From the NCBI RefSeq assembly GCF_937425535.1, contig NZ_OW485601.1, positions 2,773,501-2,837,500 on the forward strand: 64,000 bases of DNA. The letters run 5' to 3'. The DNA is from Rhodovastum atsumiense (GTDB taxonomy: Bacteria; Pseudomonadota; Alphaproteobacteria; Acetobacterales; Acetobacteraceae). Of this stretch, positions 3 to 21,330 are shown piece by piece (within the stretch, counting starts at the first letter, position 1; each line of letters begins with the position of its first letter). The notes under the pieces are model-generated. The model saw nothing but the letters and a program-made list of their open reading frames with translations. It did no database searches and was not told the origin of the DNA. A program made the translations under genes and the position numbers.

Positions 3-554
3 CTGACCTCGGGTGACGTGGACGGGTCCTTCGGCGGCGTGGAGCTGTTCGAGCTGCGCCGGCGCGGCGTGGTCGACATCGCCTACACCACCAAGGGCGA
101 CGACCCGACCTTCGGCCGCAATGCCGCGCTGTTCGTCACCGAGGCATTCGAGCGCGCGCATCCCGATCTGGTGCAGCGCGTGGTGACCGCCTTCGTGCGG
201 GCGGCCCATTACGCCGCCGACGAGGCGAACCGCGAGGCGGTGATCGCGCTCTGGACGAAATCGGGCCATCCGGCCGAGAGCTTCCGTGCCGATTTCGAAA
301 ACGAGCCGTTGGCGCGCCGGCTGACGCCGCTGCTCGACGAGTACGTGCTCGCCCGCTATCGCGACCAGGCGGCGCGGGCGCGGGAATACAACCTGATCCG
401 CAAGGACGCCGATATCGACGGCTGGGTCGAGCGCAAGTATCTCGATCGTGCCCTGGTCGAACTCGGGCTGAAGTCCTATTGGCCGCAGTACGACGCCGCC
501 GGCCACAAGGTCACGACCGGGGAGGTCGAGCGCACCCGGGCCGCGGCGCAGTGA
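3..554 (+). CDS. ABC transporter substrate-binding protein, SsuA/TauA/NMT1-like (5' truncated by window edge)
   Basis: This is the C-terminal part of a periplasmic solute-binding protein; the reading frame is open to the left edge, so the signal peptide and first lobe lie outside. The visible part includes the segment 'ELFELRRRGVVDIAYTTK' and a helical C-terminus. The assignment rests mostly on context: its stop overlaps the start of a BPD_transp_1 permease, followed by a second permease and an ATPase, the layout of sulfonate/taurine/nitrate importers. It should deliver an organic anion, perhaps a sulfonate or other sulfur compound, to the permeases. The ligand cannot be read from sequence. 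Confidence 0.7.
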   Translation: MTSGDVDGSFGGVELFELRRRGVVDIAYTTKGDDPTFGRNAALFVTEAFERAHPDLVQRVVTAFVRAAHYAADEANREAVIALWTKSGHPAESFRADFENEPLARRLTPLLDEYVLARYRDQAARAREYNLIRKDADIDGWVERKYLDRALVELGLKSYWPQYDAAGHKVTTGEVERTRAAAQ

Positions 555-1375
555 CGCTGCGCTTCCAGCGCGCGCTGCGGACGAGCAGCCGCAGGCCGGT
601 AGTCCTGCGGCTGCTCACGCGGCTTTTCATGCCGGTGGCGGCTCTGCTGGTGCCGCTGGTGCTGCTGCTCGCCTGGAGTCTCGCCGCGCGGCACGGCCTG
701 CTGCCCGACCAGATCCTGCCCGATCCCCGCGTGGTGCTGCAGACCTTGCGGGAATCAGCGGCAAGCGGCGAACTGCTGGAACATACCCTGGTCAGCCTGC
801 AGCGCGTGGCCGTGGGCTTCGCCGCGGGGGCGGCGGCGGGGCTCGCGCTCGGCACAGCGCTCGGCCTGTCACGGACCCTGCGCGGCCTGCTGGACGGCAG
901 CTTCCTCGCCCTCGCGCAGATTCCGGTGCTGGGCTGGCTGCCGCTGATGATCCTGCTGGTCGGGCTCGACGAGGAATTGAAGGTCATCGTCATCGGCTGG
1001 TCCGCCTTCGTGCCGGTGGTGTTGAACACCACGCAGGGCATGCGTGACGTGCCCCCGGCCTTGCGCGAAGTGGGGCAGGTGCTGACCTTCGATCCCTGGT
1101 CGATGTTCACGCGCATCGTGCTGCCCGCGGCTCTGCCCGCCATTTTCACCGGGCTGCGCGAAGGCCTTGCCAATTCCTGGCAGACCCTGGTGGCGGTCGA
1201 GCTGTTCGCATCGTCCGAGGGGCTCGGCTTCCTGATGTCCTGGGGACGGCAGTTGTTCCAGCTCGATCTCGTGCTGGTGGTGGTGCTGGTGGTCGGCAGC
1301 ATCGGCTTCGTGCTCAACTGGTCGCTCGGCCGCGTCGAGCAGCGCCTGCGCCGCTGGCAGGTGAGCGCGGCATGA
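551..1375 (+). CDS. ABC transporter permease, SsuC/TauC family
   Basis: This is an inner-membrane permease of about 274 residues with five or six hydrophobic segments. The cytoplasmic coupling-loop region reads 'ALREVGQVLTFDPWSMFTRIVLPAALPAIFTGLREGL', of which the EVG...PAALPAI pattern is typical of SsuC/TauC permeases. I chose the GTG at 551 because it overlaps the preceding TGA (GTGA), a translational-coupling arrangement; a longer upstream frame would overlap the binding protein by 70 bases. It pairs with the next gene to form a heteromeric channel, which is unusual because Ssu/Tau systems normally use one permease as a homodimer. Confidence 0.85.
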   Translation: MTLRFQRALRTSSRRPVVLRLLTRLFMPVAALLVPLVLLLAWSLAARHGLLPDQILPDPRVVLQTLRESAASGELLEHTLVSLQRVAVGFAAGAAAGLALGTALGLSRTLRGLLDGSFLALAQIPVLGWLPLMILLVGLDEELKVIVIGWSAFVPVVLNTTQGMRDVPPALREVGQVLTFDPWSMFTRIVLPAALPAIFTGLREGLANSWQTLVAVELFASSEGLGFLMSWGRQLFQLDLVLVVVLVVGSIGFVLNWSLGRVEQRLRRWQVSAA

Positions 1376-2145
1376 TCCTTCCTTCCCGCGCCGCGGTGCT
1401 GCGCCGTCTCCGGCCCTGGCTGGTGCCTTTGCTCGCGCTGGCGCTGTGGGATCTCGGCAGCCGTGCCGGATGGTTCGACCCGCGCCTGCTGCCGTCGCCC
1501 GAGGCGATCCTGGCACGGTTCCGGGCCGAGGTGGCGAACGGCGATCTCGGCGGCGACGTGGCGGCGAGCCTTTCGCGCGACCTTGCCGGCTTCGCCATCG
1601 GCGCCAGCACGGGCGTGGCGCTCGGCCTGCTGCTGGGCCTGTCGCACCTGGCCGAGCGGTTGCTCGGGCCGCTGTTCCTGGCCTACCGGCAGGTGGCGCT
1701 GTTCGCCTGGGTGCCGCTGCTGTCGATGTGGTTCGGCGGCAACGAGGTGGGCAAGATCGCCTTCATCTCGCTGGCGGCACTGGCACCCGCGGTGGTCAAT
1801 ACCTGGCGGGGCACGCGCGAAATTCCGCGCACGCAGGTGGAACTCGCGGCGGTGCTGACCTTTGGCCGGCTCGATTTCATCCGCTTCATCGCCCTGCCCG
1901 CGGCGCTGCCGGCGATCGCCACCGGCCTGCGCACGGCACTGATCTATGCCTGGCTCGCCACCATCGGTGCCGAGCTGTTCCTCAACATCGCGCCGGGCCT
2001 GGGCGGGCGGATGAACGAGGGGCGCGAAACCTTCCAGATGGATCTGCTGCTGACATGCCTGATCGTGCTCGGCGTGCTCGGCATCGTCTTCGCCCGGGCC
2101 GCGACCGCGGCCGAGGCTGCCCTGCTGCGACGGAGGATGGCATGA
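1372..2145 (+). CDS. ABC transporter permease, SsuC/TauC family (second subunit)
   Basis: A second permease of 257 residues, overlapping the first by four bases (ATGA). It has the same architecture, with hydrophobic segments, the TWRGTREIPRTQVELAAVL stretch and a PAALPAIATGLR coupling loop. The two permeases are paralogous along their length but clearly diverged, so they probably form a heterodimer. It is followed by the ATPase gene, again with ATGA overlap. Family membership is secure; the transported compound is inferred from neighbours only. Confidence 0.85.
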   Translation: MILPSRAAVLRRLRPWLVPLLALALWDLGSRAGWFDPRLLPSPEAILARFRAEVANGDLGGDVAASLSRDLAGFAIGASTGVALGLLLGLSHLAERLLGPLFLAYRQVALFAWVPLLSMWFGGNEVGKIAFISLAALAPAVVNTWRGTREIPRTQVELAAVLTFGRLDFIRFIALPAALPAIATGLRTALIYAWLATIGAELFLNIAPGLGGRMNEGRETFQMDLLLTCLIVLGVLGIVFARAATAAEAALLRRRMA

Positions 2146-2987
2146 CGCATATCGGACGCATCGGCGGCTTCGCCCTGGAGATCGAAGGCGTCAGCAAGAC
2201 CTTCCACGTCACCGGCAAGCCGCTGACGGTGCTGCGCGACGTCTCGCTGGTGATGCCGCGCGGCGAATTCGTCGCCATCGTCGGTGCCTCGGGCTGCGGC
2301 AAGTCAACGCTGCTGCGGCTGATCCTTGGCCTTGATACCGACTACGAAGGCGAGATCCGCGTCGACGGGCAGCGCGTGCGCCGGCCGGGCCTGGATCGCG
2401 CCATCGTCTTCCAGGAGCACCGGTTGCTGCCCTGGCTGACCGCCGAGGGTAACGTGGCGGTGGCGCTGCGACGCAGCGGCCTGCCCCGGGCGGAGCGGCG
2501 GCAGCGTGTCGCCGAATTGCTTGATCTGGTCGGCCTGTCCGCCTTCGCCGGTGCCTGGCCGGCGCAGCTCTCCGGCGGCATGGCGCAGCGCGTGGCGATC
2601 GCGCGCGCGCTGGTCAACCGGCCGCGCTTCCTGCTGATGGACGAGCCACTGGGGGCGCTGGACGCGCTGACCCGGTTGCGGCTGCAAGGCGAACTGGCGC
2701 GCATCGTGCGCCACCAGGGCAGCACGGCCCTGCTGGTGACGCATGATGTCGACGAGGCGGTGTTCCTCGCCGACCGCATCGTCATCATGCATCCGCATCC
2801 GGGGCGGGTGGCGACGGTGCTGACGGTCGGGCTCGGCGCGGCGCGCGACCGCTCCGCCCCGGCCTTCCTTGCCATCCGCGACCAGGTGCTGGACCTGCTC
2901 GGCGTGACGCCGGCCGCCACCCGGGCGGAGCCGCCGCCGGGATCGGTGGTGCGCCACTTTCCGGTGCTGGCGTCCTTCAACTGCTGA
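2142..2987 (+). CDS. ABC transporter ATP-binding protein, SsuB/TauB family
   Basis: This 281-residue ATPase should energise the two preceding permeases. Walker A reads GASGCGKST, the Q-loop lies in VFQEHRLLPWL, the signature is LSGGMAQR, Walker B is FLLMDEPLGALD and the switch histidine lies in LLVTHDVDEA. All catalytic motifs are intact. The ATG at 2142 overlaps the stop of the permease by four bases, so three transporter genes are translationally coupled. The C-terminal extension after about residue 235 carries no recognised domain. Fifty-two bases separate it from the radical SAM gene. Confidence 0.9.
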   Translation: MTHIGRIGGFALEIEGVSKTFHVTGKPLTVLRDVSLVMPRGEFVAIVGASGCGKSTLLRLILGLDTDYEGEIRVDGQRVRRPGLDRAIVFQEHRLLPWLTAEGNVAVALRRSGLPRAERRQRVAELLDLVGLSAFAGAWPAQLSGGMAQRVAIARALVNRPRFLLMDEPLGALDALTRLRLQGELARIVRHQGSTALLVTHDVDEAVFLADRIVIMHPHPGRVATVLTVGLGAARDRSAPAFLAIRDQVLDLLGVTPAATRAEPPPGSVVRHFPVLASFNC

Positions 2988-3039
2988 TGTCCCATTGCCC
3001 CCGCTGCATCGACAAAGACCACGAGACGAGGATTGATCC

Positions 3040-4272
3040 ATGTCGGCACCGAGCCGCATCCCTGACCTCAAGCGCCGCCTGTGGGAGGAGCTCGCCCTCA
3101 AGGCGGAGCTGGTGACCGACGGCGTCGCCATCACCCAGGCGGCGCTGGACCTGGCCCAGCCCGGCGTGGTGGCGCAGGAGCAGGTACACAACCTGTTCGA
3201 GATGGATTTCGACGTCCATGACTTCGAACTGCCATCGGGCTTCGACCTGCCGCTCGGCCTGTCCGTCGGCTTCCGCTGGAACCAGCGCTCGGCCAATGTC
3301 ATCACCGCCGATGGCGAGCGCACTATCCTGGTGCGCGACGGGCGCGAGTTGGGCGAGGTGAAGTTCCACAGGCGGCCCGGCTTCTACGGCCTCACCACCT
3401 CTGACGGCCAGACGATGGGCAATGTCGCCGCGCTGTATCGTCACCGCGCCCTGTTTGTCGCCTACAGCAACGAATGTTCGTACAAGGATCGCGGCGAGGA
3501 CTGCGCCTTCTGCAACATCAACCACACCAAGGACGTCTACGGCGAGAAGAAGGGCATCTTCTGGAAGACGCCGAAGCAGATCGGCGAGGTCGCGGCCGCC
3601 GCCTTCGCCGAGGACGCCATCGACCACGTCACCATCAGCGGCGGCGTGATCCCGGAGCGGCGCGAGCTGGAATACTACCTCGACGTCGCCGAGGCGATCC
3701 AGGCCCATACCGGGCGCCAGGACTTCAACGGCACCGCCGTGGTCGCCGCCCCGCTCGACCTGCGCCACATCGATCGCTTCAAGGAAGCCGGGTACCGCAC
3801 CACGGCGATGAACATCGAAATCTGGGACAGCGGCTACTACGACACCATCTGCCCGGGCAAGGCGCGTGGCGGCGGCGGCTGGGAGCACTGGGTGAAGGCG
3901 CTGAAGCACGCCGGGCAGGTGTTCGGCCACGGCAACGTGCGCTCCAACATGGTCGCCGGGCTGGAGCCCAAGCGGAAGACGCTGGAGGGGCTTGAATACC
4001 TCGCCGCGCATGGCGTGGTCGGCACCTTCTCGGTCTGGTGCCCCAATCCGGGCTCGGAACTGGAAGGACACCGCGCGCCGCAGCCGGGCTGGTACCTCGA
4101 TCTGGCCGAGAAGACCACGGCGATCTGGAAGAAGGCCGGCTTCACCTTCCAGCAGGTCTGCGACTGCAACGCCTCCAACGACACGCTGCAGCACGACATC
4201 TGGCGCATCCAGGACGAACTGCTGCCGGTGTTCGCCGAGGCACGCGAACCGGAAGCGGCCCATGCGGCCTGA
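3040..4272 (+). CDS. Atypical radical SAM protein (CX8CX2C) of the nitrogenase-like cluster
   Basis: This 410-residue protein has a radical SAM core but not the usual CX3CX2C motif. The probable cluster cysteines are C146, C155 and C158 (ECSYKDRGEDCAFC), giving CX8CX2C. The following 'ITISGG'-like stretch (VTISGGVIPERRE) fits the SAM-binding GGE-type motif. An N-terminal region of about 140 residues precedes the core, and the C-terminus holds a CDC pair. It is not NifB: there is no NifB motif set or NifX tail. It lies between the importer and the NifH/D/K-like genes. A role in cofactor maturation, or as an enzyme acting on the same substrate, is an inference. Confidence 0.7.
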   Translation: MSAPSRIPDLKRRLWEELALKAELVTDGVAITQAALDLAQPGVVAQEQVHNLFEMDFDVHDFELPSGFDLPLGLSVGFRWNQRSANVITADGERTILVRDGRELGEVKFHRRPGFYGLTTSDGQTMGNVAALYRHRALFVAYSNECSYKDRGEDCAFCNINHTKDVYGEKKGIFWKTPKQIGEVAAAAFAEDAIDHVTISGGVIPERRELEYYLDVAEAIQAHTGRQDFNGTAVVAAPLDLRHIDRFKEAGYRTTAMNIEIWDSGYYDTICPGKARGGGGWEHWVKALKHAGQVFGHGNVRSNMVAGLEPKRKTLEGLEYLAAHGVVGTFSVWCPNPGSELEGHRAPQPGWYLDLAEKTTAIWKKAGFTFQQVCDCNASNDTLQHDIWRIQDELLPVFAEAREPEAAHAA

Positions 4273-4394
4273 CCGTCCCGTCCTGCCCCATGGGCGCTGA
4301 GGCGCCGATGGACGGGCACCCTGCCGCCGCGCGCGTTTGCCCCACGCCGGGCGCGGCGGCAGGGGAAACCACCCCCTGCGAGGAGGCACCCTCC

Positions 4395-5636
4395 ATGCCC
4401 GCTTTCCTGCATCCGGGGACGCTGGCCAGGTTCCTGGTGCTGAGTGGCGCCAGCGGCATCTCGATCGGCGTGCTCGCCGTGGCGGTGCCGCTCTATGCGC
4501 TCGGCCTGCCGGCGAGCGCCGCCGAGGTCGGGCTGATCCGCGCCGCCGGCGGACTCGGCCTGCTGCTCGCCGCCATTCCCGCGGGGTTCTGCGTCGATCG
4601 CTTCGGCCCGCATCGCAGCTTCCATGCCGGCAGCATCGTCAGCATCGCCAGCATTGTCGGCTTCGCCTTCGCGCCCACCCCCGCCGCGCTGGCGCTGCTG
4701 GTGTTCTGCGACGGCGCGGCGCGGGCACTGCAGCTCAATGCGCTCGGCGCCATCTATTTCGAGGCGCTGCCCTGGCTCGGGCCGCGCCGGCTGGGCTGGC
4801 ACAAGGCATCGCTGTCCACCGGGCTCAGCTTCGCCGGGCCGCTGCTCGCGGGGCTGCTGCTGGGCTCGGTCGGCTTCGGCGTCACCTTCGCGACGGTGGT
4901 GGCGCTGGTGCTGCTGCCGAACCTGCTGATCCGGCGCATCGCCGCACCCCGGCCGAGCCAGGGGCATGGCGGGCCGGGGACGACGCTGCGTGACCATCTC
5001 GATGGCTCCCGCGCGCTGCTGCAGCATCCTCGCGTGGTAAGCAGCCTGCTTACCGAGGCGGTCGTCAGCGGCAGCTTCGCCGCCTTCACCAGCTTCATGG
5101 TGGTGCGCGCGGTGACCGAGCTGGGCCAGGGCGCCGGTATCACGGCGCTGCTGGTGGGGTTGGAAGGGGCCGCCTTCATTGTCACCGTGTTCCGCGGCGG
5201 GGAACGGGTCGCGCGCCGGACGCATCGCGCGGCCGCGCTCGGCGGCATCGCCCTGTCGGCGGTCAGCTTCGTCGGCCTGGCGCTGGCCACCTCGCTGGTG
5301 CTGCTGGCCGAATTCGCGGTGACGCTCGGCGTGGGGCTGGGCGTGCTGAACCTGGTGACCACGGCGCGGGCGGCCAGCCTGCCCGGCGAGAAGGGGCGCG
5401 TCACCGCCCTGTTCATGACGGCCGCCAGCCTGGGGGGGGCGCTGGGCCCGGCCTTCGCCGGCGTGCTGGCCGGGACGCTCGACACGCGCGCCGCCTTCAT
5501 CGGCTTCGTGCCGCTGTACCTGCTGCTGGCCGTTCTGGTGCTGGCGCCGGCCCGCCCGCGCCCGCTTGCCGGCGGCTTCACCCCGTTGCGGGACGACGCG
5601 CCCGCCCCATCAGAGTTGAGGACGGAAACACCGTGA
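4395..5636 (+). CDS. MFS transporter
   Basis: A major facilitator protein of 413 residues with about twelve hydrophobic segments and the loop 2-3 signature as [13 protein letters not shown] (G-x-x-x-D-R-x-G). The ATG at 4395 has a good ribosome binding site (GAGGAGG) eight bases upstream. Its stop overlaps the GTG start of the NifH-like gene (GTGA), which ties it to the reductase operon. It may export a product or import a substrate of the pathway; the direction and compound are unknown. The 122-base gap before it contains a short hairpin around 4290-4313 but no obvious promoter. Confidence 0.8.
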
Positions 5637-6508
5637 GCGAACGGACGGCCAAACACATCGCGATCTACGGCAAGGGCGGCATCGGCAAGTCCACCACCAC
5701 CTCCAACATCAGCGCGGCCCTGGCCGCCGAGGGCTACCGCGTCATCCAGGTCGGCTGTGATCCCAAGGCGGATTCCACCACCATCCTGCGCGGCGGCGAC
5801 GATCTGCCGACCGTGCTGGACACGTTGCGCGAGCAAGGGCGGGTGACGCTCGCCGACATCTCCGCGACCGGCTTCGGTGGCGTGCTTTGCATCGAGGCGG
5901 GCGGACCGGTGCCGGGCGTGGGCTGCGCCGGGCGCGGCATCAGCGCCGCGGTCGACCTGCTGCACGAGCTGGAGGTGTTCGAGCAGTTCAAGCCGGACGT
6001 GGTGCTGTATGACGTGCTCGGCGACGTGGTCTGCGGCGGTTTCGCCGTGCCGATCCGCGACGGCATCGCCGAGCGTGCCTTCGTGGTCACGTCGTCCGAT
6101 TTCATGGCGGTGTTCGCCGCCAACAACCTGTTCAAGGCGATCAGCAAATACGCACCTTCCGGCGGGGCGCGGCTCGGCGGCATCATCGCCAACGGGCTGC
6201 AGGCGCCCTACGCGCGGCCCCTGGTCGATGACTTCGCCGCGCGCACCGGCACGCGGGTGATCGGCTACGTGCCGCGCTCGCTCGCGGTGGCGCAGGGCGA
6301 GCTGTATGGCCAGACCGTCATCCAGTCGGCGCCGCAGTCCGAGCAGGCCGCCATCTACCGCGCGCTTGCCCGCGTCGTCGTCGGCGACGAGGACACCACG
6401 ATCCCGCGCCCGCTGAACGGTCCGGCGCTGAAGGGCTGGGCCAAGAGCTGGGGCGACCGCATCTTCACCGAGGAAGCCGCCCTGGTCGAGGCCGGGGGAG
6501 GGGTCTGA
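5633..6508 (+). CDS. NifH-like ATP-dependent reductase (nitrogenase-like component 2)
   Basis: This 291-residue protein is a homodimeric iron-sulfur ATPase that passes electrons to a component-1 partner. The P-loop GKGGIGKS spans residues 13-20, the GCDPKADST switch is at 41-49, and the two inter-subunit [4Fe-4S] ligands are present as C98 (GVGCAGRG) and C134 (GDVVCGG). R101 matches the arginine that is ADP-ribosylated in NifH. The CAGRG context is nitrogenase-type rather than BchL-type. It starts with GTG overlapping the MFS stop, and one base separates it from the component-1 genes that should be its electron acceptors. Confidence 0.88.
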
Positions 6509-6509
6509 C

Positions 6510-7880
6510 ATGGCGCGCCGTCCGGTCCTGCCCACCCGCGAAAAGCGCCTGCAGGCGATCAGCGCCTGGCTCGGCACCGCCGATGCGCTGAGCGCGGAAT
6601 TCGCCGCCGGCACCCCGCCGCAGCGGGTGCGCACCTTCTCGCAGGCCGCGCCCGATGATCTGGCGGCGGCGCTGGCCTTCCTCGGTGGCATCGCCGGCGT
6701 GGGCATCGTCGTGCACGGCCCGCGCGGCTGTGCCGCGGCGCTGGTGGAAAGCGCGCCGGCGGCGCACTGGGCGGTCACCGGGCTCGACCAGCGCGATACC
6801 ATCATGGGCTCGGAGGGCGCCCTCTCGCGCAGCATCCTGGCGCTGTACCGGCGCCACCATCCCTGGGCCGTGTTCGTGGTCACCACCCCTGTCGTCGCCA
6901 TCAACGGCGACGACGCGCGCGCCACCGCCGACGCGCTGTCCGCCGAGCTCGACATCCCTGTCGTCGTGGTCGCCGTGGACGGGTTCCGTTCGCGCGTCGC
7001 CGCCACCGGATCCGATGCCGCCAGCGACGCGGCGCTGCGGCTGGTGCCGCCGCCCGCCGGGCCGGTGGGGGATTTTGTCAACCTGCTGACGCTCGATGCC
7101 GGCCGGGCCGCCGAGGCCGCCGCGCTGCTCGCTTCCCTGGGGCTCGGCGCCAACGTGCTGCCGGCCGGCGCCGATGCCGGGCGGTTCGTGCTGGCCGCGC
7201 GGGCGCGCTTCAGCGTGGCGCTCGACCCGGATGCCACCGAACGCTTCGGCCTCGGGCTGGAGGCCGCCCATGGCGTGAAGTTGCTGCGTCAGGCGCTGCC
7301 GATCGGCCTGGAGGCGACGCGGCACTGGCTGGAAGTGGTGGCCGCGGGCGCGGGCCATCCGCCGCCGGAGCGCCGCCTGCACGAGGCGCGGCTGGAGGCG
7401 CTGGGACAGCCGCTCGCGGGGCTGCGCGTCCATCTTGCGCTGCCGCCCGCCGCCGCCTTTGCCGGCGCGGTGCTGGTGGGCGAACTGGGCGGCACCGTCG
7501 CCCGCCTCAGCGTCGATCACGTCGATGCCGGGCACGTGGCGGCGCTGCGCCGCTTCGCCGAGGACCATCCGGGAGCGGTGCTGCACGTCGCCCATGGCCA
7601 GCCCTTCGAGCACGCCAACCTGCTGGGTGCCCGTGCCGCCGATCTGTTCATCGGCAGACCGGAGCTGGCGGCGCTGGCGGCGCGGCTCGGCGTGCCGGCG
7701 GTGGGCATCGCCGCGGCGGCGCTGGTCGGTTACCAGGGCGCCGAGTATCTGGTGCGGCAGGCGCGAAAGGCGCGGGCCAATCCCGCCTTCGTGCGTCGTC
7801 TGGCGGCGACCGCCCCGACCTACAGCGCCGCCTGGCTGCGGCGCAGCGCCGACTGGCATATCAAGCAGGAGGTCCGGTGA
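6510..7880 (+). CDS. Nitrogenase component 1-like protein, subunit with a single cluster cysteine (NifD/E-like)
   Basis: This 456-residue protein has the segment GIVVHGPRGC (C74), matching the HGPxGC cysteine of NifD/NifE, and a later TTPVVAINGDD where NifD has CPxxxIGDD. I see only one cysteine in the whole protein: the positions of NifD C62 and C154 are S44-like and T. No residues resembling the FeMo-cofactor ligands (NifD C275 and H442) are evident. It therefore cannot build half of a normal P-cluster or hold FeMo-co as NifD does. Together with the next gene it would form the heterotetramer that receives electrons from the NifH-like protein. Confidence 0.75.
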   Translation: MARRPVLPTREKRLQAISAWLGTADALSAEFAAGTPPQRVRTFSQAAPDDLAAALAFLGGIAGVGIVVHGPRGCAAALVESAPAAHWAVTGLDQRDTIMGSEGALSRSILALYRRHHPWAVFVVTTPVVAINGDDARATADALSAELDIPVVVVAVDGFRSRVAATGSDAASDAALRLVPPPAGPVGDFVNLLTLDAGRAAEAAALLASLGLGANVLPAGADAGRFVLAARARFSVALDPDATERFGLGLEAAHGVKLLRQALPIGLEATRHWLEVVAAGAGHPPPERRLHEARLEALGQPLAGLRVHLALPPAAAFAGAVLVGELGGTVARLSVDHVDAGHVAALRRFAEDHPGAVLHVAHGQPFEHANLLGARAADLFIGRPELAALAARLGVPAVGIAAAALVGYQGAEYLVRQARKARANPAFVRRLAATAPTYSAAWLRRSADWHIKQEVR

Positions 7881-9292
7881 TGGCGGTGTCCTCGGAGCGT
7901 CCAGGCACCGGCTGCGCCCTGCACGGCGCGCTGCTCAGCGCTGCCGCGGTGCCCGGCGTGGTGCCGATCCTGCACGCGACCGCCGGCTGTGCCGTTCAGG
8001 CCGGGCATGGCGGCACCGCCGGTGCGGCGGGATGGAGCGGCGGCCTCGGCGTGCCTGCCACCAACGTGTTCGAGAAGCAGGTCGTGTTCGGGGCCACGGC
8101 GCGGCTGCGCGAGCAGATCAAGAACGCCGTCAAGATCCTCGATGGCCAGCTCTATGTCGTGCTGAGCAGTTGTGCCACCGAGATGATCGGCGACGACATC
8201 CCCGCCATGGCGAAGGAAGCGCGCGAGCAGGGGCTGCCGGTCATCGACGTCGCCACCGCCGGCTTCCGCGGCCCGGCCCACGAGGGCTACACGCTGTTCC
8301 TCAAGGGCGTGCTGGCGCAGGCCGGGCGGCTCGGCGCACCCGGGCCGCGCGATCCCGCCCTGGTCAATCTGCTCGGCATCGTGCCGGGACAGGACGTGTT
8401 CTGGGAAGGCGAACTGGCGGAATGGTCGCGTCTGCTCGCCGGCATTGGCCTGCGGGCCAATCCGCTGTTCGGCCCCGATGGTGGCGTCGACGGCCTGCGC
8501 GACCTGCCGCGCGCCGCGATCAGCCTGGTGTTTTCGCCCTGGGGGCTGGAGGTGGCGCGCGGCCTGGAGCAATCCGCCGGGGTGCCCTGGCTCGATGCCG
8601 GCGGCCTGCCGGTGGGCGTGGAGGCCAGTGCTGAATTGCTGCGGGCGCTGGCGGCGCGGCTCGGCGCCGATGCCGCCCCGGTCGAGGCCGTGATCGCCGC
8701 CGAGCGCCGCCGCGAGGACCATGCCCTGTTGCGGCTGGCCGAAGCTTGGCACCGCCTGGAGCTGCAGCGCGAATTCGCCCTGGTGGCCGGCAGCCTGCAG
8801 GTGCCGGGGCTGGTGCGCTTCCTGGTCGGCACGCTGGGCTGGCTGCCGCGCACGATCGTGGTGACGGACGCCCTGCCGGAGCCGGCGCGTGCCGCGCTGG
8901 AAGCGACCCTGGCGGCAACGACGGAAGGCTTCGAGGCGCGCGTGTTGTTCAGCGACAACGCGGCCGAGATCGCCGATGCCGTGCTGGCGCAGGGCGCGGA
9001 AATCGTGCTCGGGCGTGCCTTCGAGCGCGACGTGGCCGAGCGCCTCGGCGTGCCGTTGGTCGAGCTGGCCTTTCCCGTCGCCGACCGGCTGGTGCTCGAC
9101 AGCTTCTATTCCGGTCCCCGTGGGGCGCGGCGGCTGATCGAGGAGATCGGGCGGGCGGCCCTGGCCGGGGGCCGCGCTCCCGCCGAGGACACGCAACCAG
9201 CCCTTCCAACCCCCGTTGTCGTGCCCGCCCAGCCGATCGCTTCCTCCGCTCCGGCCACGGCGGGCCGAACCGCACCGCTTCCTGCAACCTGA
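7880..9292 (+). CDS. Nitrogenase component 1-like protein, subunit with three cluster cysteines (NifK/N-like)
   Basis: This 470-residue protein carries three cysteines placed as in NifK: C12 (GTGCALHGA), C37 (LHATAGC, exactly 25 residues later as in NifK C70-C95) and C98 ([12 protein letters not shown], matching the NifK C153 context). I chose ATG 7880 because AGGAGG sits seven bases upstream; a GTG three bases earlier overlaps the previous stop. The last 45 residues are a Pro/Ala-rich tail. With one cysteine from the partner it could supply four ligands for a [4Fe-4S] cluster at the interface, as the NB-cluster of DPOR does. Confidence 0.78.
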
Positions 9293-9305
9293 GAAAGACC
9301 CGACC

Positions 9306-10304
9306 ATGTGCCGCCTGTTCGCCCTCGTCCTGATCGCGCTGTCGGTCAGCTCGGCTGCCCTGGCGCAGACGACGCTGCTGAACGTCTCCTACGATCCGAC
9401 GCGTGAGCTTTACGCCGCTTTCAACAAGGCCTTCACCGAAGTCTGGAAGCGTCAGACCGGCGAAACCGTCCAACTGCGGGCGTCGCATGGTGGATCAGGG
9501 GCGCAGGCCCGCGCGGTCATCGACGGGCTGGAGGCGGACGTGGTGACGCTTGCCCTGGAACCCGACATCGACGCCATCGTCGACCGGTCCGGGCTGATCG
9601 CGCCGGGCTGGCGGGGGGAACTGCCAAATCGCTCGGTGCCCTATACCTCGACCATCGTCTTCCTGGTCCGCAAGGGCAACCCGAAGCAGATCCGCGACTG
9701 GCCCGACCTGATCCGTCCGGGCGTGGCCGTCATCACTCCCAATCCCAAGACCTCCGGCGGCGCACGCTGGAACTACCTCGCCGCCTGGGGCTATGCGCTG
9801 CGCGCCAACGAAGGGGACGAGGCCAAGGCGCGCGCCTTCGTGGCCGAGTTGTTCCGCCACGTGCCGGTGCTGGACAGTGGCGCGCGCGGTGCCACCAACA
9901 CCTTCGCGCGGCGCAACCAGGGCGACGTGCTGCTGGCCTGGGAGGACGACGCCATCCTGGCGGTGCGGGAAATCGGCAGCAACCAACTGGAAATCGTCTA
10001 CCCGTCGCTGTCGATCAAGGCCGAGCCGGTGGTCGCCGTCGTCGACAAGGTGGTGGATCGCCGCGGCACGCGCGCGCTGGCGGAAGCCTATCTGCGCTAC
10101 CTGTACACGCCGGAGGGGCAGGATCTGGTGGCCCGCCACTACTACCGCCCGATCGACCCGGCGGTGGCGGCGCGGCACACCCAGACCTTCCCGCCGATCG
10201 CCACCTTCGCGCTGGAGGATCTGTTCGGCGACTGGCGGACGGTGCAGGCGAAGCACTTCTCTGATGGCGGCATCTACGACCAGATCCATCAGCCGGGCCG
10301 CTGA
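9306..10304 (+). CDS. Sulfate-type periplasmic binding protein (Sbp/CysP family)
   Basis: A 332-residue secreted protein with a typical signal peptide ending near SSAALAQ. The mature start '[18 protein letters not shown]' and the later [24 protein letters not shown] region are characteristic of sulfate/thiosulfate-binding proteins. I chose ATG 9306, which puts the signal sequence at the N-terminus; the frame is open upstream but overlaps the preceding gene. It lies 13 bases after the NifK-like gene on the same strand and has no CysT/W/A genes beside it. That suggests it was recruited to this operon, or works with a sulfate permease encoded elsewhere. Confidence 0.85.
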
Positions 10305-10387: not shown

Positions 10388-11785
10388 TCAGCGGAACACG
10401 TCGCGCTTTCCCTCGTGCACCTTGCGGATCATCGTTTCCGAGTAGTGCCGGATCTTTTCAGGCATCCGCTCGAGTTCCGCCTGGATCGCCTGGTTGCCGG
10501 CCCGCACCGTCGCCGGTGAGGCATAATCCTCGAGGTATTCGACGAAGGTGGAGAGCCCGTTCGGGCCGCACATCTCGCGGATCAGGCCGGGCTTGGCCAT
10601 GTCCATGAAGTCCTTGCCAGTGCGGCCGCGGCGGTAGCATGCGGTGCAGAAGGACGGCAGGAAGCCCGCTTCGGCGACATCGTGCACCACCTCGTCGAGC
10701 GAGCGGTGGTCGCCGCGCTGGAACTGGCTGGCGTCCTCGGCATCGGTCTCCGTGTAGCCGCCCGGATTGGTGCGACTGCCGCCGGAGATCTGCGAAATCC
10801 CGAGCAACAGGCTTTCCCGCCGCATCGCCGGGGTTTCGCGCGTGCTCATGATCATCCCGGTATAGGGAACAGCGAGGCGCAGGATGGCGATGAGCTTGCG
10901 GAAATCGTCGTCGGAGACGGCATAGGGCGGCGCTTCCGACATCGCCGAGCCGACGGCGGGCTCGATCCGCGGCACGCTGATCGTGTGACAGCCGACGCCG
11001 AAGCACTGTTCCAGATGGGCGATGTGCTGCATCAGCGCCAGGATCTCGAAGCGCCAGTCGTACAGGCCGAACAGCACGCCGAGCCCGACATCGTCGATGC
11101 CCGCTTCCATGGCCCGGTCCATCGCCGAGACGCGCCAGGCGAAATCGGTCTTGGGGCCGGCGACATGCACCTCGGCATAGGTCGGGCGGTGATAGGTTTC
11201 CTGGAACAGTTGGTAGGTGCCGATGCCGGCGGCCTTGAGCGCCCGGAATTCCTCGACGGTGAGCGGCGCGACATTGACGTTGATGCGGCGGATCTCGCCA
11301 CGATCGCGGTGCACGCCGTAGATCGTGGCGATGGCATCGAGCAGGTAGGAAAATCCCTTGCCGGGAAACGCCTCGCCGGCGATCAGCAGCAGCCGCTTGT
11401 GTCCCTGTTCGACCAGCGCGGCGGTTTCCTGCGCCACTTCCTCAAGCGTCAGGAACCGGCGGGACAATTCGTGATTATTCTTGCGGAAGGCGCAGTAGAC
11501 GCATTCGTTCTGGCAGATGTTGGAGAAGTAGAGCGGCGCGAACAGCACCACGCGCCGTCCGTAGATCTCGTCCTTGACGGTGCGGGCGGCGTCGAAGACC
11601 TCCGCCAGCAGGTCGGGCGACGTGACCGTCGACAACACCGCCACCTCGGCAAGGCCCAGCCCCGTCAGAGTCCTGGCCTTGTCGAGAATGGCCCTGACCT
11701 GCCCCGGGTCGTCGCGGGCCGGCGACCCGAGCGCCCCGGCAATGGCAGCCTCGTCGATCCAGTCGATCGGGCTTTGCTGTTTCAT
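10388..11785 (-). CDS. hydG: [FeFe]-hydrogenase H-cluster maturase HydG
   Basis: HydG is a radical SAM tyrosine lyase that makes the CO and CN ligands of the H-cluster. The 465-residue product has the SAM cluster motif CQNECVYC (CX3CX2C). It also has the diagnostic C-terminal second-cluster motif CTACYRRGRTG...C, spaced CX2CX22C, which separates HydG from the paralogue ThiH. Length is normal for the family. It is the third gene of the - strand hydrogenase operon, 43 bases after hydA. HydE and HydF, the other two maturases, are not in this window and would have to be elsewhere. Confidence 0.93.
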   Translation of the reverse strand: MKQQSPIDWIDEAAIAGALGSPARDDPGQVRAILDKARTLTGLGLAEVAVLSTVTSPDLLAEVFDAARTVKDEIYGRRVVLFAPLYFSNICQNECVYCAFRKNNHELSRRFLTLEEVAQETAALVEQGHKRLLLIAGEAFPGKGFSYLLDAIATIYGVHRDRGEIRRINVNVAPLTVEEFRALKAAGIGTYQLFQETYHRPTYAEVHVAGPKTDFAWRVSAMDRAMEAGIDDVGLGVLFGLYDWRFEILALMQHIAHLEQCFGVGCHTISVPRIEPAVGSAMSEAPPYAVSDDDFRKLIAILRLAVPYTGMIMSTRETPAMRRESLLLGISQISGGSRTNPGGYTETDAEDASQFQRGDHRSLDEVVHDVAEAGFLPSFCTACYRRGRTGKDFMDMAKPGLIREMCGPNGLSTFVEYLEDYASPATVRAGNQAIQAELERMPEKIRHYSETMIRKVHEGKRDVFR

Positions 11786-11828
11786 GCCGGGACCTTTGCC
11801 GGGAAGGAGGTCTTATTTCAACGCGCTT

Positions 11829-13742
11829 TCACGAGATGAACTTGCCGCGCCGTGTGTAGTCGGTGTGCAGCAGGTGGTGCGACTGATGGCCGCAGGGACC
11901 GTCGGTCAGGAAGTCCTCATAAAGTTTCAGCACCACCGGGTTTTCGTGCGATTTGCGCAGGGCATAGCCGGCATCCGCTTCGTAGATCGCCTGGGCGCGT
12001 TTGGCGCGGATTTCCGGGGTGGTGGGGATCGGCTGGCCGCCGCCGCCGAGGCAACCGCCCGGGCAGGCCATGACCTCGATGAAGTGGCATTCGCTGAACG
12101 GGCCGCCGGCCTTGATGTCCTCGACCACCTGGCGGGCATTGGCGATGCCGTGTGCGACGCCCACTTTCAGGGTCACCCCCTTCAGCCATTCCCAGTCCGG
12201 CACCAGCGCCTTGAGCAGGTCGGGCACCGGCCCGACCTCGGTGATCGGGATCTCGATCAGCCGCGCGCCCTCGAAGCCGCGCACCGGCACGATGTTGGCG
12301 TGGTCGAAGAAGTTCTCCACTTTCTGGCCGGTGACCAGCTCGATCACCGTGCGCAGCGCCGCCTCCATCACGCCGCCGGTGGCACCGAAGATCATGCCGG
12401 CGCCGGAGGCTTCGTAGAACGGCTCGTCGAAGCCCGATTTCGGCATGTTCGGCAGGTCGATGCCGGCCTCGGAGATCATCTTGGCGAGTTCGCGGGTGGT
12501 GACGACGAAATCGACGTCCTTGAAGCCGCTGTCGCACATCTCCGGCCGGTTGCACTCGTATTTCTTGGCGGTGCAGGGCATTACCGACACCACCACCATG
12601 TCCCTGGGATCGATGCCGCGCTGCTGGGCGTAATAGGTCTTCAGCAGCGCCCCGAACATCTGCTGCGGGCTCTTGGCGGTGGAGAGGTTGGGGATCATGT
12701 CGGGATAGACGTGCTCGACATATTTCACCCAGCCCGGCGAGCAACTGGTGAACTGCGGCAGGGCGACGTCGTTGTCGCGCTTGGCCAGGGCGTTGTAGAG
12801 CCGCAGGATCAGCTCGGTCCCTTCCTCCAGGATGGTCAGGTCGGCGGTGTGGTTGGTGTCGAACACGCCGTCGAAGCCCATACGGCGCAGCGCGGTGTTC
12901 ATCTGCCCGGTCATCGAGGTGCCGGGCGGCTGGCCGAAGCATTCCCCGATCGCCGCGCGCGGCGAGGGCGCGGTCTGGATCACCACGTGCCGGCTCGGGT
13001 CATCGAGCATCCGCCAGACCTCGTCGGTCTGGTCGAGCGCGGTCAGCGCGCCGGTCGGGCAGCGATTGATGCACTGGCCGCAATTGATGCAGACCACCGC
13101 GGCGAGCGACTTGTCGCCGAAGGTGGTGATCATCGACCGCGCGCTGCGGTCCTTCACCGTCAGGCAGCCGATCGCCTGCAACTCCGCGCAGGTGCGCACG
13201 CAGCGGCGACAGAGCACGCATTTGTTCATGTCGCGCACGATGGCGTCGCTGGTGTGGTCCACCGGGTAGCGCGGCTCGGTCGGATGGCCGAAGCGGAAGA
13301 AATCCACCCCGTATTCCTTGGCCAGCGACTGCAGCTCGCAATTGTTGTTGCGCTTGCAGGCGTAGCATTCGCCGTAGTGGTTGGCGAGCATCAGGTCGAC
13401 GATGTGCCGGCGTGCCGTGCGCACGGCGCGGGCCTTGGTGTCGATGGCGATAGGCTGCAGGATCGGGGTGGTGCAGGCGGGCTGCAGCGCGCGCATCCCT
13501 TCGACCTGCACCACGCAGATGCGGCAGACCCCGGCCGGGCGCAGGTCCGGATGGTCGCACAAGGTGGGGATGTGCACGCCGATCTCGCGGGCGGCCTTGA
13601 GGATGGTGGTGCCGGATGGCACCTCGACCGAGATGCCGTCGATGGTGGCGCTGACCATGACGGGGGCGGACGGTGCCTCGGACGCGCCGGCATCGCCGGC
13701 GGGGGCACACGGGACGACGACGTCGCGCGGATGATGATGCAT
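11829..13742 (-). CDS. hydA: [FeFe]-hydrogenase catalytic subunit, NAD(P)-linked multimeric type
   Basis: A catalytic subunit of about 637 residues. In order it has a ferredoxin-like [2Fe-2S] domain (CDHPDLRPAGVCRIC...C), a NuoG-like segment with His/Cys ligands (HYGECYACKRNNNC), a two-[4Fe-4S] domain (CVLCRRCVRTC and CINCGQCINRC) and the H-cluster domain. L1 reads TSCSPGW (C334, S335), L2 MPCTAKKYE and L3 EVMACPGGCLGGGGQP, followed by the small-subunit-like tail. The ATG at 13742 has GGGAG about ten bases upstream; a longer frame would overlap the NuoEF gene. The TSCCP motif of well-studied enzymes is altered at its second cysteine. Confidence 0.92.
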   Translation of the reverse strand: MHHHPRDVVVPCAPAGDAGASEAPSAPVMVSATIDGISVEVPSGTTILKAAREIGVHIPTLCDHPDLRPAGVCRICVVQVEGMRALQPACTTPILQPIAIDTKARAVRTARRHIVDLMLANHYGECYACKRNNNCELQSLAKEYGVDFFRFGHPTEPRYPVDHTSDAIVRDMNKCVLCRRCVRTCAELQAIGCLTVKDRSARSMITTFGDKSLAAVVCINCGQCINRCPTGALTALDQTDEVWRMLDDPSRHVVIQTAPSPRAAIGECFGQPPGTSMTGQMNTALRRMGFDGVFDTNHTADLTILEEGTELILRLYNALAKRDNDVALPQFTSCSPGWVKYVEHVYPDMIPNLSTAKSPQQMFGALLKTYYAQQRGIDPRDMVVVSVMPCTAKKYECNRPEMCDSGFKDVDFVVTTRELAKMISEAGIDLPNMPKSGFDEPFYEASGAGMIFGATGGVMEAALRTVIELVTGQKVENFFDHANIVPVRGFEGARLIEIPITEVGPVPDLLKALVPDWEWLKGVTLKVGVAHGIANARQVVEDIKAGGPFSECHFIEVMACPGGCLGGGGQPIPTTPEIRAKRAQAIYEADAGYALRKSHENPVVLKLYEDFLTDGPCGHQSHHLLHTDYTRRGKFIS

Positions 13743-13765
13743 GGGCCTGCTTCTCCCGAGATCCG

Positions 13766-15475
13766 TCAATGGCCCTGGATCGGACGCGCCAGGATCTCTT
13801 CCTTGAAGTGCGCGTTCAGTGCCACGATGACATTCGGGCTCGCCTGGCCGAGTCCGCATTTGGAGGTGAGCTTGATCGTCTCGCTCAGGCCGATCAGGTC
13901 ATTGAGGTAGCGGTTGGAGCAGGTGCCGCGCTTGAGCAGGCGGATGCCCTCCAGCAGCTTGACGTTGCCGTCGCGGCAGGGCGTGCACTGGCCGCAGGAT
14001 TCCTCGATGAAGAATTCCAGGTAGTTCTCGGCCACTTCCAGCATGTCGCGGTCCGGGCCGTAGATGATGATCGAGCCGCCGATGCCCAGGTCCTCGTAGG
14101 CGATCTTGCGGTCGAACTGCCGCGCCGGCACCAGTTGCCCGGTATAGCCGCCCACCTGCACCGCCTTGGCGCCCTTGCCGCCGACGGTTTCCAGCAACTG
14201 ATCGACGGTGATGCCCCAGGGCAGCTCGTAGACGCCGGGATGGGTGCAGTCGCCGGAGACACTGAACAGCTTGAAGCCCTTCGACCGCTCGGTGCCCATG
14301 CTGGCGAACCACTTGGCGCCGCGGTCGAGGATGCAGCAGGCCGAGGCGAGCGTCTCGACGTTGTTGACGATGGTCGGGCAGTTGTTGAAGCCGCGTTCCA
14401 CTGGATAGGGCGGGCGGTTGCGCGGTTCGCCGCGCCGGCCTTCCAGGGATTCGATCAGCGCGGTTTCCTCGCCGCAGACATAGGCGCCGGCGCCCATGTG
14501 GATGCGCACGTCGAAGCAGAAGCCTGGCCGGCCGAGGATGTCCTTGCCGAGCAGGTTGGCGCGGCGGCGCGCTTCCAGCACCGCTTCCAGATGCGGGCGG
14601 AGGTGGCTGTACTCGTAGCGCAGATAGACGATGCCTTCGCGCGCGCCCACGACATAGGCGGCGATGGTCATGCCTTCGAACACCATGTCGGCGTGCTTGC
14701 CGAGGATGATGCGGTCCTTGAAGGTGCCGGGTTCGCCTTCGTCGGCGTTGCAGACCATGTATTTCGGGTCGCCCTTGGCCGCGGCGCCGAACTGCCATTT
14801 CAGCCCGGTCGGGAAGCCGGCGCCGCCGCGCCCGCGCAGGCCGGAGGCGGTCAGTTCGGCGATCACCTCGCGGGGCGACATCGCCACCACCTTGGTCAGC
14901 GCGGCATTGGCCTGGTGGTTGGCGTAATTGAGGGTGTTGGAATAAGTCTCGCCGACATTGCCCACGGGCTTGCGATGGGCGTTGTACTCCTGCCGGCAGT
15001 CCTCGATGATCCGGTGCACCTTGGGCGCGGTGAGATTGGAGAACACCTCGTTGTTCACCATCATCGCCGGCGCCTGGTAGTTCATGCCGATGCAGCTGGT
15101 CCATTCCAGCGTGAACATGCCATCCGGCGTGGTTTCGCCAAAGCGAATGCCAAGGTCATTCTGCAACTGTTGGGCGACCATCTTCGCGCCCTTCATCATC
15201 GACGACATGTCGCGGCTGAGCCGGATGATGAAGCGCCCTTTCGGACGGGTGTTCACGAAATGGTAGAAGGTGGCGACCCCGTACACCTCGGCGGCGGACA
15301 TACCCATCAGGTCGGCGATGTATTGCATCGCAAATTCAGAAATATAGCCGCACTCTGTTTGCAGTGCCTGAAGTATAGGTATCAGAGCGGAGCGCTTTTG
15401 CAATCTTTCAATGATGTATTTCTTGGCGAGGTCGGCGATCAGGTCTTTTTCTTTATCTTGTAGCGTCAACAGCAT
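13766..15475 (-). CDS. NuoE-NuoF fusion, NAD(P)H-oxidising diaphorase subunit of the hydrogenase
   Basis: This 569-residue protein fuses a NuoE thioredoxin-like domain (residues 1-150) to a NuoF domain. The NuoF part has the FMN/NADH motifs GLRGRGGAGFPTGLKW, NADEGEPGTFKDR and GAGAYVCGEETALIESLEG, and a complete C-terminal [4Fe-4S] site (SCGQCTPC...SKCGLG). The NuoE part is degenerate: the CX4C pair is SX4S (SRDMSS) and the second pair CLGAC reads CIGMN, so three of four [2Fe-2S] ligands are gone. It would exchange electrons between NAD(P)H and HydA, whose gene follows after 23 bases. Upstream, GAGAGAGG lies a few bases before the ATG. Confidence 0.9.
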   Translation of the reverse strand: MLLTLQDKEKDLIADLAKKYIIERLQKRSALIPILQALQTECGYISEFAMQYIADLMGMSAAEVYGVATFYHFVNTRPKGRFIIRLSRDMSSMMKGAKMVAQQLQNDLGIRFGETTPDGMFTLEWTSCIGMNYQAPAMMVNNEVFSNLTAPKVHRIIEDCRQEYNAHRKPVGNVGETYSNTLNYANHQANAALTKVVAMSPREVIAELTASGLRGRGGAGFPTGLKWQFGAAAKGDPKYMVCNADEGEPGTFKDRIILGKHADMVFEGMTIAAYVVGAREGIVYLRYEYSHLRPHLEAVLEARRRANLLGKDILGRPGFCFDVRIHMGAGAYVCGEETALIESLEGRRGEPRNRPPYPVERGFNNCPTIVNNVETLASACCILDRGAKWFASMGTERSKGFKLFSVSGDCTHPGVYELPWGITVDQLLETVGGKGAKAVQVGGYTGQLVPARQFDRKIAYEDLGIGGSIIIYGPDRDMLEVAENYLEFFIEESCGQCTPCRDGNVKLLEGIRLLKRGTCSNRYLNDLIGLSETIKLTSKCGLGQASPNVIVALNAHFKEEILARPIQGH

Positions 15476-20911: not shown

Positions 20912-21330
20912 CGGTCGAGCACCGAACGGTCGTTCTTGCGGGCCAGGGTGCGGAAATGCGGCTCGATCTCGGCTTCGGCGAGGCCGAACGCCTGGGCGAA
21001 GTCGATGATCAGCCGCTGCTCGCCCGGCTCGGCGTCGCCATCGGACATGGCGCTGTCGATCATGTTCAGCAGGATGCAGAGCTTCTGGTCCGGCCGCAGC
21101 TGCGGTGCCACGGTAGCGAGGAACTGCGCCGGCTGGGTCACGCGCACATAGCGCAGGCAGGCATCGAGCTGGTCACGGCTGGCGCCACGCCCGAGCACCG
21201 AGGTGAGATGCCCGACTTCCTCGGGGTCGATCTCTCCGTCCGCCCCCATGCAGTAGATGAGGGATATGACGAGGCAGTTGCGCGGCGTGAGATCGAGTTG
21301 CGCAGACTGCGACCTGAACATTCCGAACAT
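20908..21330 (-). CDS. TerB-family protein
   Basis: This 140-residue, all-helical protein resembles TerB (tellurite resistance/DUF533 fold). Two acidic metal-binding-like loops are visible, GADGEIDPEEVGHL and SDGDAEPGEQRLIIDF, spaced as in the TerB repeats. Its last four bases overlap the end of topB on the other strand. No other ter genes are nearby, so tellurite resistance itself is not implied; stand-alone TerB proteins have varied, poorly known roles. Confidence 0.75.
   Translation of the reverse strand: MFGMFRSQSAQLDLTPRNCLVISLIYCMGADGEIDPEEVGHLTSVLGRGASRDQLDACLRYVRVTQPAQFLATVAPQLRPDQKLCILLNMIDSAMSDGDAEPGEQRLIIDFAQAFGLAEAEIEPHFRTLARKNDRSVLDR

Follow-up and report, generated by a model that had tools for sequence, protein, structure and literature searches.

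A probable isethionate reductase-type operon for anaerobic sulfonate assimilation in the acetobacterial species Rhodovastum atsumiense

The genome of Rhodovastum atsumiense carries a run of genes in which NifH-, NifD- and NifK-like proteins are encoded together with a sulfonate-type importer, a radical S-adenosylmethionine (SAM) protein and a sulfate-family binding protein. Which reaction would such a nitrogenase-like enzyme catalyze, and is it related to a system that has already been described? We studied this run in a window, i.e. a stretch of 64,000 nucleotides (bases 2773501-2837500 of one contig of the 7.42-Mb genome), where it occupies positions 3-10304 of the forward strand. Our analysis indicates that it is likely an operon for anaerobic sulfonate assimilation of the IsrBHDK (isethionate reductase, Isr) type. 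This enzyme family is already known from another purple bacterium, Rhodobacter capsulatus, and the run, as judged from its sequence, is a further member in an acetobacterial host. Very probably, the cluster provides the bacterium with sulfur from sulfonates such as isethionate when oxygen is absent.

Relationship to isethionate reductase

The genes isrBHDK (formerly nflBHDK) and ssuCAB of R. capsulatus SB1003 are required for anaerobic growth with isethionate as sole sulfur source, an isrDK mutant is rescued by isethionate lyase, and the seven genes confer the trait on R. sphaeroides (Morimoto 2024, PMC11423573). According to the available text of that article, IsrB is essential, is a radical SAM protein that is not NifB-like, and neither its role nor the carbon product is established there. 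The same text describes IsrD as having a single P-cluster cysteine, Cys74, unlike other NifD homologues, while IsrK keeps three, and places the IsrD and IsrH clades beside those of methylthio-alkane reductase (Mar); the models for the study were made in a separate paper. Our literature search (Isr names, and a wider search from 2024 on) found no further experimental study of Isr, and later papers cite PMC11423573.

The window shares several traits with this system. Its radical SAM gene precedes the genes of H, D and K, which follow in this order with a major facilitator superfamily (MFS) gene between B and H, and a sulfonate-type importer is nearby. The D protein has the single Cys74, the K protein has three cysteines, the Mar cofactor ligands are lacking, and the clades lie beside Mar. 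More precisely, Cys74 is the only cysteine in the 456 residues of IsrD, and its position is a cysteine in all six IsrD proteins that we aligned among 15 D-type proteins. At the P-cluster positions these six have Asp, Cys and Pro, versus three cysteines in the five MarD-type proteins. The two lost cysteines were described as Arg and Pro/Ser (PMC11423573, available text); the third position is Pro in 6/6 sequences, and the first deviates (see below). In IsrK, Cys13, Cys38 and Cys99 (numbered from the GTG start; each number is one lower from the ATG at 7880) fall in columns that are cysteine in 7/7 sequences.

Phylogenetic analysis places the proteins next to Mar. In a tree of 35 D and K proteins, the six IsrD group together (support 100/100), with MarD as their sister clade (95/94); likewise, the seven IsrK group together (100/99), with MarK as sister clade (100/100). 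When the Bch and NifN rows are left out, the corresponding figures are 100/100, 93/92, 98/96 and 100/99. The tree program flags a composition bias in several rows, including the IsrD of the window. In the reductase tree without Bch proteins, IsrH is a clade (98/98) sister to MarH (100/100); with BchL and BchX added, the verrucomicrobial IsrH is unplaced, with long branches. The D/K and reductase trees do not include R. capsulatus, NfaHDK or CfbCD rows; in them the D, K and H proteins of the window are sister to the Mar clades and not nested within them.

The best match of IsrK by sequence in the PDB is MarK (4.3e-73), that of the IsrD profile is MarD (4.8e-61), and no Isr structure is present among the best 60 PDB matches of either query. 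The first fold match of an AlphaFold model of IsrD (six sequences, mean predicted local distance difference test score, pLDDT, 75.6) is MarD 9fmg_A (E 2.4e-23, template modelling score 0.59, root-mean-square deviation 9.6). Identity to the Rhodospirillum rubrum proteins is 29% for IsrD/MarD and 37% for IsrK/MarK. IsrB gave a poor structure model (mean pLDDT 53.9) and has no match in the PDB at 0.01. Its cluster motif is CX8CX2C, at Cys146, Cys155 and Cys158, in place of CX3CX2C, and the three cysteines, along with Cys271, are invariant in 5/5 aligned sequences. No NifB match was found for this radical SAM protein among NCBIfam-type models up to E 0.001.

We thus favor the Isr-type assignment because of the published genetics of isrBHDK and ssuCAB, the cysteine pattern, the clades beside Mar, the radical SAM protein that is not of NifB type, and the importer adjoining isrB. 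It is further supported by an SsuA-type gene after isrK in a related locus (L020, see below), and by an Sbp gene of R. capsulatus, which is induced about 4600-fold on isethionate (PMC11423573, available text).

These results change the status of the locus relative to our initial annotation. The latter linked a nitrogenase-superfamily reductase to organosulfur uptake and set it outside the Mar group, which we consider right on the first count and which the trees bear out on the second. It described the locus as none of the characterised systems. This stands for the Nif, Bch and Cfb models, whose cut-offs are missed, but it fails for Isr: a neighborhood with an assigned function, which the annotation itself had named as a refutation, exists, since nflBHDK with SsuCAB was linked in 2024 to the use of isethionate by R. 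capsulatus without oxygen (PMC11423573, available text). The naming of Mar as nearest parallel holds in that the clades adjoin, with the proteins of the run outside Mar; the NifB-like partner of Mar is absent from the run, as published for Isr.

Other nitrogenase-like families were rejected as well. The proteins miss the cut-offs of nitrogenase NifHDK and NifEN (H: nifH 365 of 394 bits; D: nifE 68 of 505; K: nifE 85 of 505 and nifK 71 of 427), although the nifH cut-off is weak evidence when taken alone, because a Mar-type H protein passes it with 401. They also miss those of the dark-operative protochlorophyllide oxidoreductase (DPOR) and the chlorophyllide oxidoreductase (COR) (H: BchL 229 of 345 and BchX 179 of 331; D: BchN 35 of 420; K: BchB 81 of 490), and those of CfbCD (H: CfbC 321 of 402; D: CfbD 31 of 268). 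DPOR (BchLNB) resembles Isr in that two subunits together bind a single [4Fe-4S] cluster, through three Cys and one Asp, and in that it has no nitrogenase cofactor (PMC11423573, available text). It differs in its separate clade and its tetrapyrrole substrate. We know of no radical SAM partner of DPOR. Isethionate lyase IslAB also frees sulfite from isethionate anaerobically, but it is a glycyl-radical enzyme and not nitrogenase-like (PMC11423573, available text).

Alternative substrates and functions

Several observations weigh against the Isr-type assignment. The window proteins were likened to R. capsulatus Isr (rcc02237-02234) through the published description. The published Arg at the first IsrD P-cluster position is not reproduced in our alignment: Asp is there in 6/6 sequences (Asp49 in the window), with Arg39 and Arg41 upstream. 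The gene arrangement is also different. In R. atsumiense, a TauD-family gene leads a single run with the importer, isrB, MFS, HDK and Sbp genes; R. capsulatus has ssuCAB at a distance of some genes and an unlinked Sbp gene, and no MFS gene is among the listed locus genes (PMC11423573, available text). The TauD-family, MFS and Sbp genes are outside the published minimal set, and the MFS gene separates isrB from isrH. Among the genomes that we drew, Isr is rare: 1/385 in the class, 1/200 in the family and 2/7 in the genus. The R. atsumiense genome is counted in these figures and is the single one found in the class.

The importer is a further point against, and it also bears on the substrate. 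None of its four proteins reaches the cut-off of a sulfonate-transport model, and this holds for the complete binding protein against SsuA_fam as well, so that the imported compound is not fixed by the sequence. The same enzyme family, with the same mechanism, might serve another physiological sulfonate (e.g. ethanesulfonate, sulfoacetate or taurine), with the importer and residues particular to each clade determining which one. The strong difference between the IsrD of the window and of the verrucomicrobial clade (42% identity) fits this idea, as does the fact that, as far as the literature search showed, a single species has been tested in print. However, isethionate alone has been demonstrated as a substrate of this family, and taurine use in R. 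capsulatus did not require isr (PMC11423573, available text). We regard another substrate as a minority possibility.

The last point against comes from three related loci (L018, L019 and L021), which carry isrBHDK with no importer or MFS gene among the open reading frames (ORFs) listed. If a recognizable sulfonate importer can be missing next to isrB, H, D and K, the reductase might perform some unrelated reduction and adjoin the transport genes by chance. The tight gene spacing in the window, the SsuA-type gene after isrK in L020 and the published genetics that tie isr to the importer (PMC11423573, available text) all speak against it, and we consider it very improbable.

Finally, a Mar variant acting on thioethers, which the sister position would suggest, as would the solved structures that come closest in sequence and fold, has next to no probability given the separate clades (100/100 for D, 100/99 for K), the absence in 6/6 IsrD of two of the three MarD P-cluster cysteines and of the Cys270 and His429 ligands, the lack of a NifB-like gene in the run, and the true Mar-type genes elsewhere in the genome.

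Cofactor and proposed mechanism

By analogy with R. capsulatus, the SsuABC-like importer of the Isr-type operon would take in a short (C2) alkanesulfonate, most likely isethionate. A dimer of IsrH, driven by ATP, would hand electrons to a [4Fe-4S] cluster of IsrDK, probably held by IsrD Cys74 and by IsrK Cys13, Cys38 and Cys99, to judge from the cysteines, as was done in PMC11423573. IsrDK and the radical SAM protein IsrB could then cleave the C-S bond and release sulfite for assimilation, again as proposed from R. capsulatus. The Sbp gene would fit a sulfur-starvation regulon, and the MFS protein might export sulfite or the carbon product, or act as another importer. As for the TauD-family dioxygenase, we may guess from the position of its gene that it does the same job in the presence of oxygen. 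A counterpart of this kind was sought in R. capsulatus and not found (PMC11423573, available text), and the TauD-family gene beside isr is thus a candidate for it.

MarBHDK of R. rubrum shares with Isr the H and DK architecture and the reductive C-S cleavage for sulfur supply, but MarB is NifB-like and MarD has three P-cluster cysteines, where IsrD has one Cys only, and anchors an [Fe8S9C] cluster with Cys270 and His429 (PMC12552129, available text). In our alignment, the position of Cys270 (Cys275-type) is Asp in 6/6 IsrD and Cys in 5/5 MarD-type proteins; that of His429 is Arg, Thr or Ser in the six IsrD and His in 5/5 MarD-type proteins. Since the IsrD of the window has a single cysteine and neither of these ligands, the enzyme is expected to function independently of [Fe8S9C]. 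Four of the six IsrD have a Cys two residues before the invariant Asp, so that a nearby ligand may exist in these four; the proteins of the window and of L022 do not have it.

The Asp residues of IsrD at the positions of a MarD P-cluster Cys (Asp49) and of the cofactor Cys (Asp239) suggest a carboxylate-lined site if the enzyme has no such cofactor. It is conceivable, and we propose it tentatively as less likely than its opposite, that Isr cleaves the C-S bond of sulfonates without any nitrogenase-type cofactor, using one four-Cys [4Fe-4S] cluster and this site, with IsrB supplying a radical, a small different cluster or a modification. If true, reductive C-S cleavage would have arisen from one ancestor in two chemically different ways, in Mar and in Isr. 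The census of cysteines sharpens the published open question on the cofactor of Isr.

Related loci and distribution

One contig scan revealed six further isr loci in five genomes, five of the loci acetobacterial and one verrucomicrobial. The hosts are three uncultured Rhodopila (L018, L019, L021), one Acetobacteraceae metagenome-assembled genome (MAG; L020, L023) and one Spartobacteria MAG (L022). IsrB is encoded in four of the six loci; the remaining two lie on short contigs, whose sequence begins inside or after isrH. In L022, an MFS gene directly precedes isrB and its product is 36% identical to the MFS protein of the window. The same contig encodes a nitrogenase K-type protein (19754-21154, minus strand; some 7 kb away from isrK), which groups with the K protein of the R. 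atsumiense Fe-only nitrogenase. In L020, isrK is followed by an SsuA-type gene (TIGR01728 196.5 bits, above the cut-off of 163.5) and a nitroreductase gene, and L023 has similar genes after isrK, judged by their first residues. Since both contigs of this MAG carry isrK together with an SsuA-like gene, it probably has Isr in two copies, unless the bin is mixed.

The distribution of Isr looks patchy in genome draws that used thresholds from 1e-10 to 1e-80 and few genomes per genus. IsrD was absent from the genomes drawn in two other families (0/298 and 0/394), and these zeros are uninformative on R. capsulatus. The family giving 0/298 was chosen by a BchB identity of 75% and is probably not that of Rhodobacter. 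The family giving 0/394 was chosen with a GroEL query (PDB 1iok, which we take to be from Paracoccus), whose best genome had 86% identity (1/133). The best match in 295 genomes of this family to BchB 3aek_B, presumably from R. capsulatus, was at most 77% identical, which suggests that the genus Rhodobacter was most likely absent from the draw. On plasmids, IsrD had no match at 1e-10 and IsrB matched 508 records, all below 60% identity; the 20 matches listed are other radical SAM proteins.

Genomic context

The complete run comprises tauD-like, ssuA-like, two permease, ATPase, isrB, mfs, isrH, isrD, isrK and sbp genes (Table 1). The initial annotation listed the importer, radical SAM, MFS, NifH-like, two NifD/K-like and Sbp-like proteins as consecutive on one strand with GTGA/ATGA overlaps, and both statements are accurate: all ten genes of the window are on the plus strand with family matches far above chance, and the junctions at 1372 (permease/permease) and 2142 (permease/ATPase) read ATGA, that at 5633 (MFS/NifH-like) GTGA and that at 7877 (NifD-like/NifK-like) GTGATG. 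Its extent, 3-10304, covers the genes as named; the first of them is only a 3' half and the run reaches one gene further upstream. No gene for nifB, nifE/N, bch or cfb was reported there, and none of the ten scanned genes exceeds the cut-off of such a model. The remaining gaps are 1 base (NifH-like/NifD-like), 13 bases (NifK-like stop to Sbp), 52 (ATPase to radical SAM) and 122 (radical SAM to MFS). We infer that the run, from the TauD-like gene to sbp, forms one transcript.

Table 1. Genes of the Isr-type run, with positions in the window or in the upstream flank (L009)
Gene product	Position	Strand	Evidence and remarks
TauD-family protein	L009 14481-15428		PF02668 1.4e-57; taurine dioxygenase model 235.5 bits (below cut-off 313); head of run, ends 19 bases before SsuA-type gene
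SsuA-type sulfonate-family binding protein, complete	L009 15448-16554		368 aa; TIGR01728 SsuA_fam 120.5 bits (below cut-off 163.5); Pfam NMT1 5.1e-18
SsuA-type sulfonate-family binding protein, 3' half	3..554	+	183 of 368 aa; start upstream of window
ABC permease, SsuC/TauC type	479..1375	+	PF00528 3.7e-25; top NCBIfam SaoP 147 of 295 bits, SsuC 138 of 347, both below cut-offs; first listed start codon, actual start possibly further downstream
Second ABC permease, SsuC type	1372..2145	+	PF00528 4.1e-18; SsuC 161 of 347 bits, below cut-off
ABC ATPase, SsuB/TauB type	2142..2987	+	PF00005 3.4e-33; top NCBIfam SaoA 240 of 360 bits, below cut-off
IsrB-type radical SAM protein	3040..4272	+	Radical_SAM 9.3e-10; NF045502 variant_rSAM 422 bits (cut-off 125)
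MFS transporter	4395..5636	+	MFS_1 3.4e-26; ATG 4395
IsrH, NifH-like reductase	5633..6508	+	Fer4_NifH 7.7e-94; P-loop GKGGIGKST, Cys98, Cys134
IsrD, NifD-like	6510..7880	+	Oxidored_nitro 9.6e-45; 456 residues, sole Cys is Cys74
IsrK, NifK-like	7877..9292	+	Oxidored_nitro 9e-70; Cys13, Cys38, Cys99
Sbp, sulfate-family periplasmic binding protein	9306..10304	+	NF008022 487 bits (cut-off 288); TIGR00971 440 bits (cut-off 155.5)

Elsewhere in the genome, other members of the superfamily are abundant, with nine Fer4_NifH matches, of which eight are nearly full-length. We identified a V nitrogenase (L015; VNFD 966 bits, cut-off 823), an Fe-only nitrogenase (L012; ANFD 1085 bits, cut-off 874) and a NifDKEN set of the Mo type (L016), named from gene order and place in the tree. 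DPOR is present in L010 (BchB by PDB match), and L011 holds genes that we read as putatively of the COR type. Four MarD-type proteins are 53-65% identical to R. rubrum MarD and three MarK-type proteins are 64-69% identical to MarK, in loci L025/L026, L038 and L039. With three types of nitrogenase, genes of the DPOR and COR types, four MarD-type proteins and Isr, the genome has a very full set of the superfamily, and the operon would extend isethionate reductase to what is probably a purple bacterium of the acetobacterial lineage. Isr and the Mar-type genes lie at separate places in the genome, so that two sister C-S-cleaving enzymes could be compared within the same cell.

At about 225-270 kb, Mar-type genes for two H, two D and two K proteins lie together, beside genes for an O-acetylhomoserine sulfhydrylase (542 bits, cut-off 495), an alkanesulfonate monooxygenase (577 bits, cut-off 518) and a NifB-like protein (272 bits, below the cut-off of 344). 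Next to them are two sets of acyl-CoA dehydratase activase-type ATPases (L024 1462-4771 and 7438-10871, genome 226-236 kb). The one activase scanned matches TIGR00241 (216.5 bits, cut-off 125.4) and the partner proteins have no NCBIfam match at 1e-20; presumably, these sets resemble double-cubane-cluster proteins. In L038, a lone MarD-type gene (8251-9774; 65% to R. rubrum MarD) is followed by an aldo/keto-reductase-like gene, named by eye, with no K or H gene among the nearby ORFs listed. Genome-wide, 11 matches to Xsc were found, none over the cut-off.

The operon is adjoined on the opposite strand by [FeFe] hydrogenase genes (window 10388-15475, minus strand), encoding HydG (535 bits, cut-off 312), an NADH-dependent group A6 HydA (787 bits, cut-off 765) and a NuoE/NuoF-like fusion. 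Upstream of it are genes for 2-aminoethylphosphonate use (L009 6648-13949, minus strand), with a PhnS2 binding protein (484 bits, cut-off 393), PhnW (477 bits, cut-off 401) and a PbfA-type lyase (615 bits, cut-off 525).

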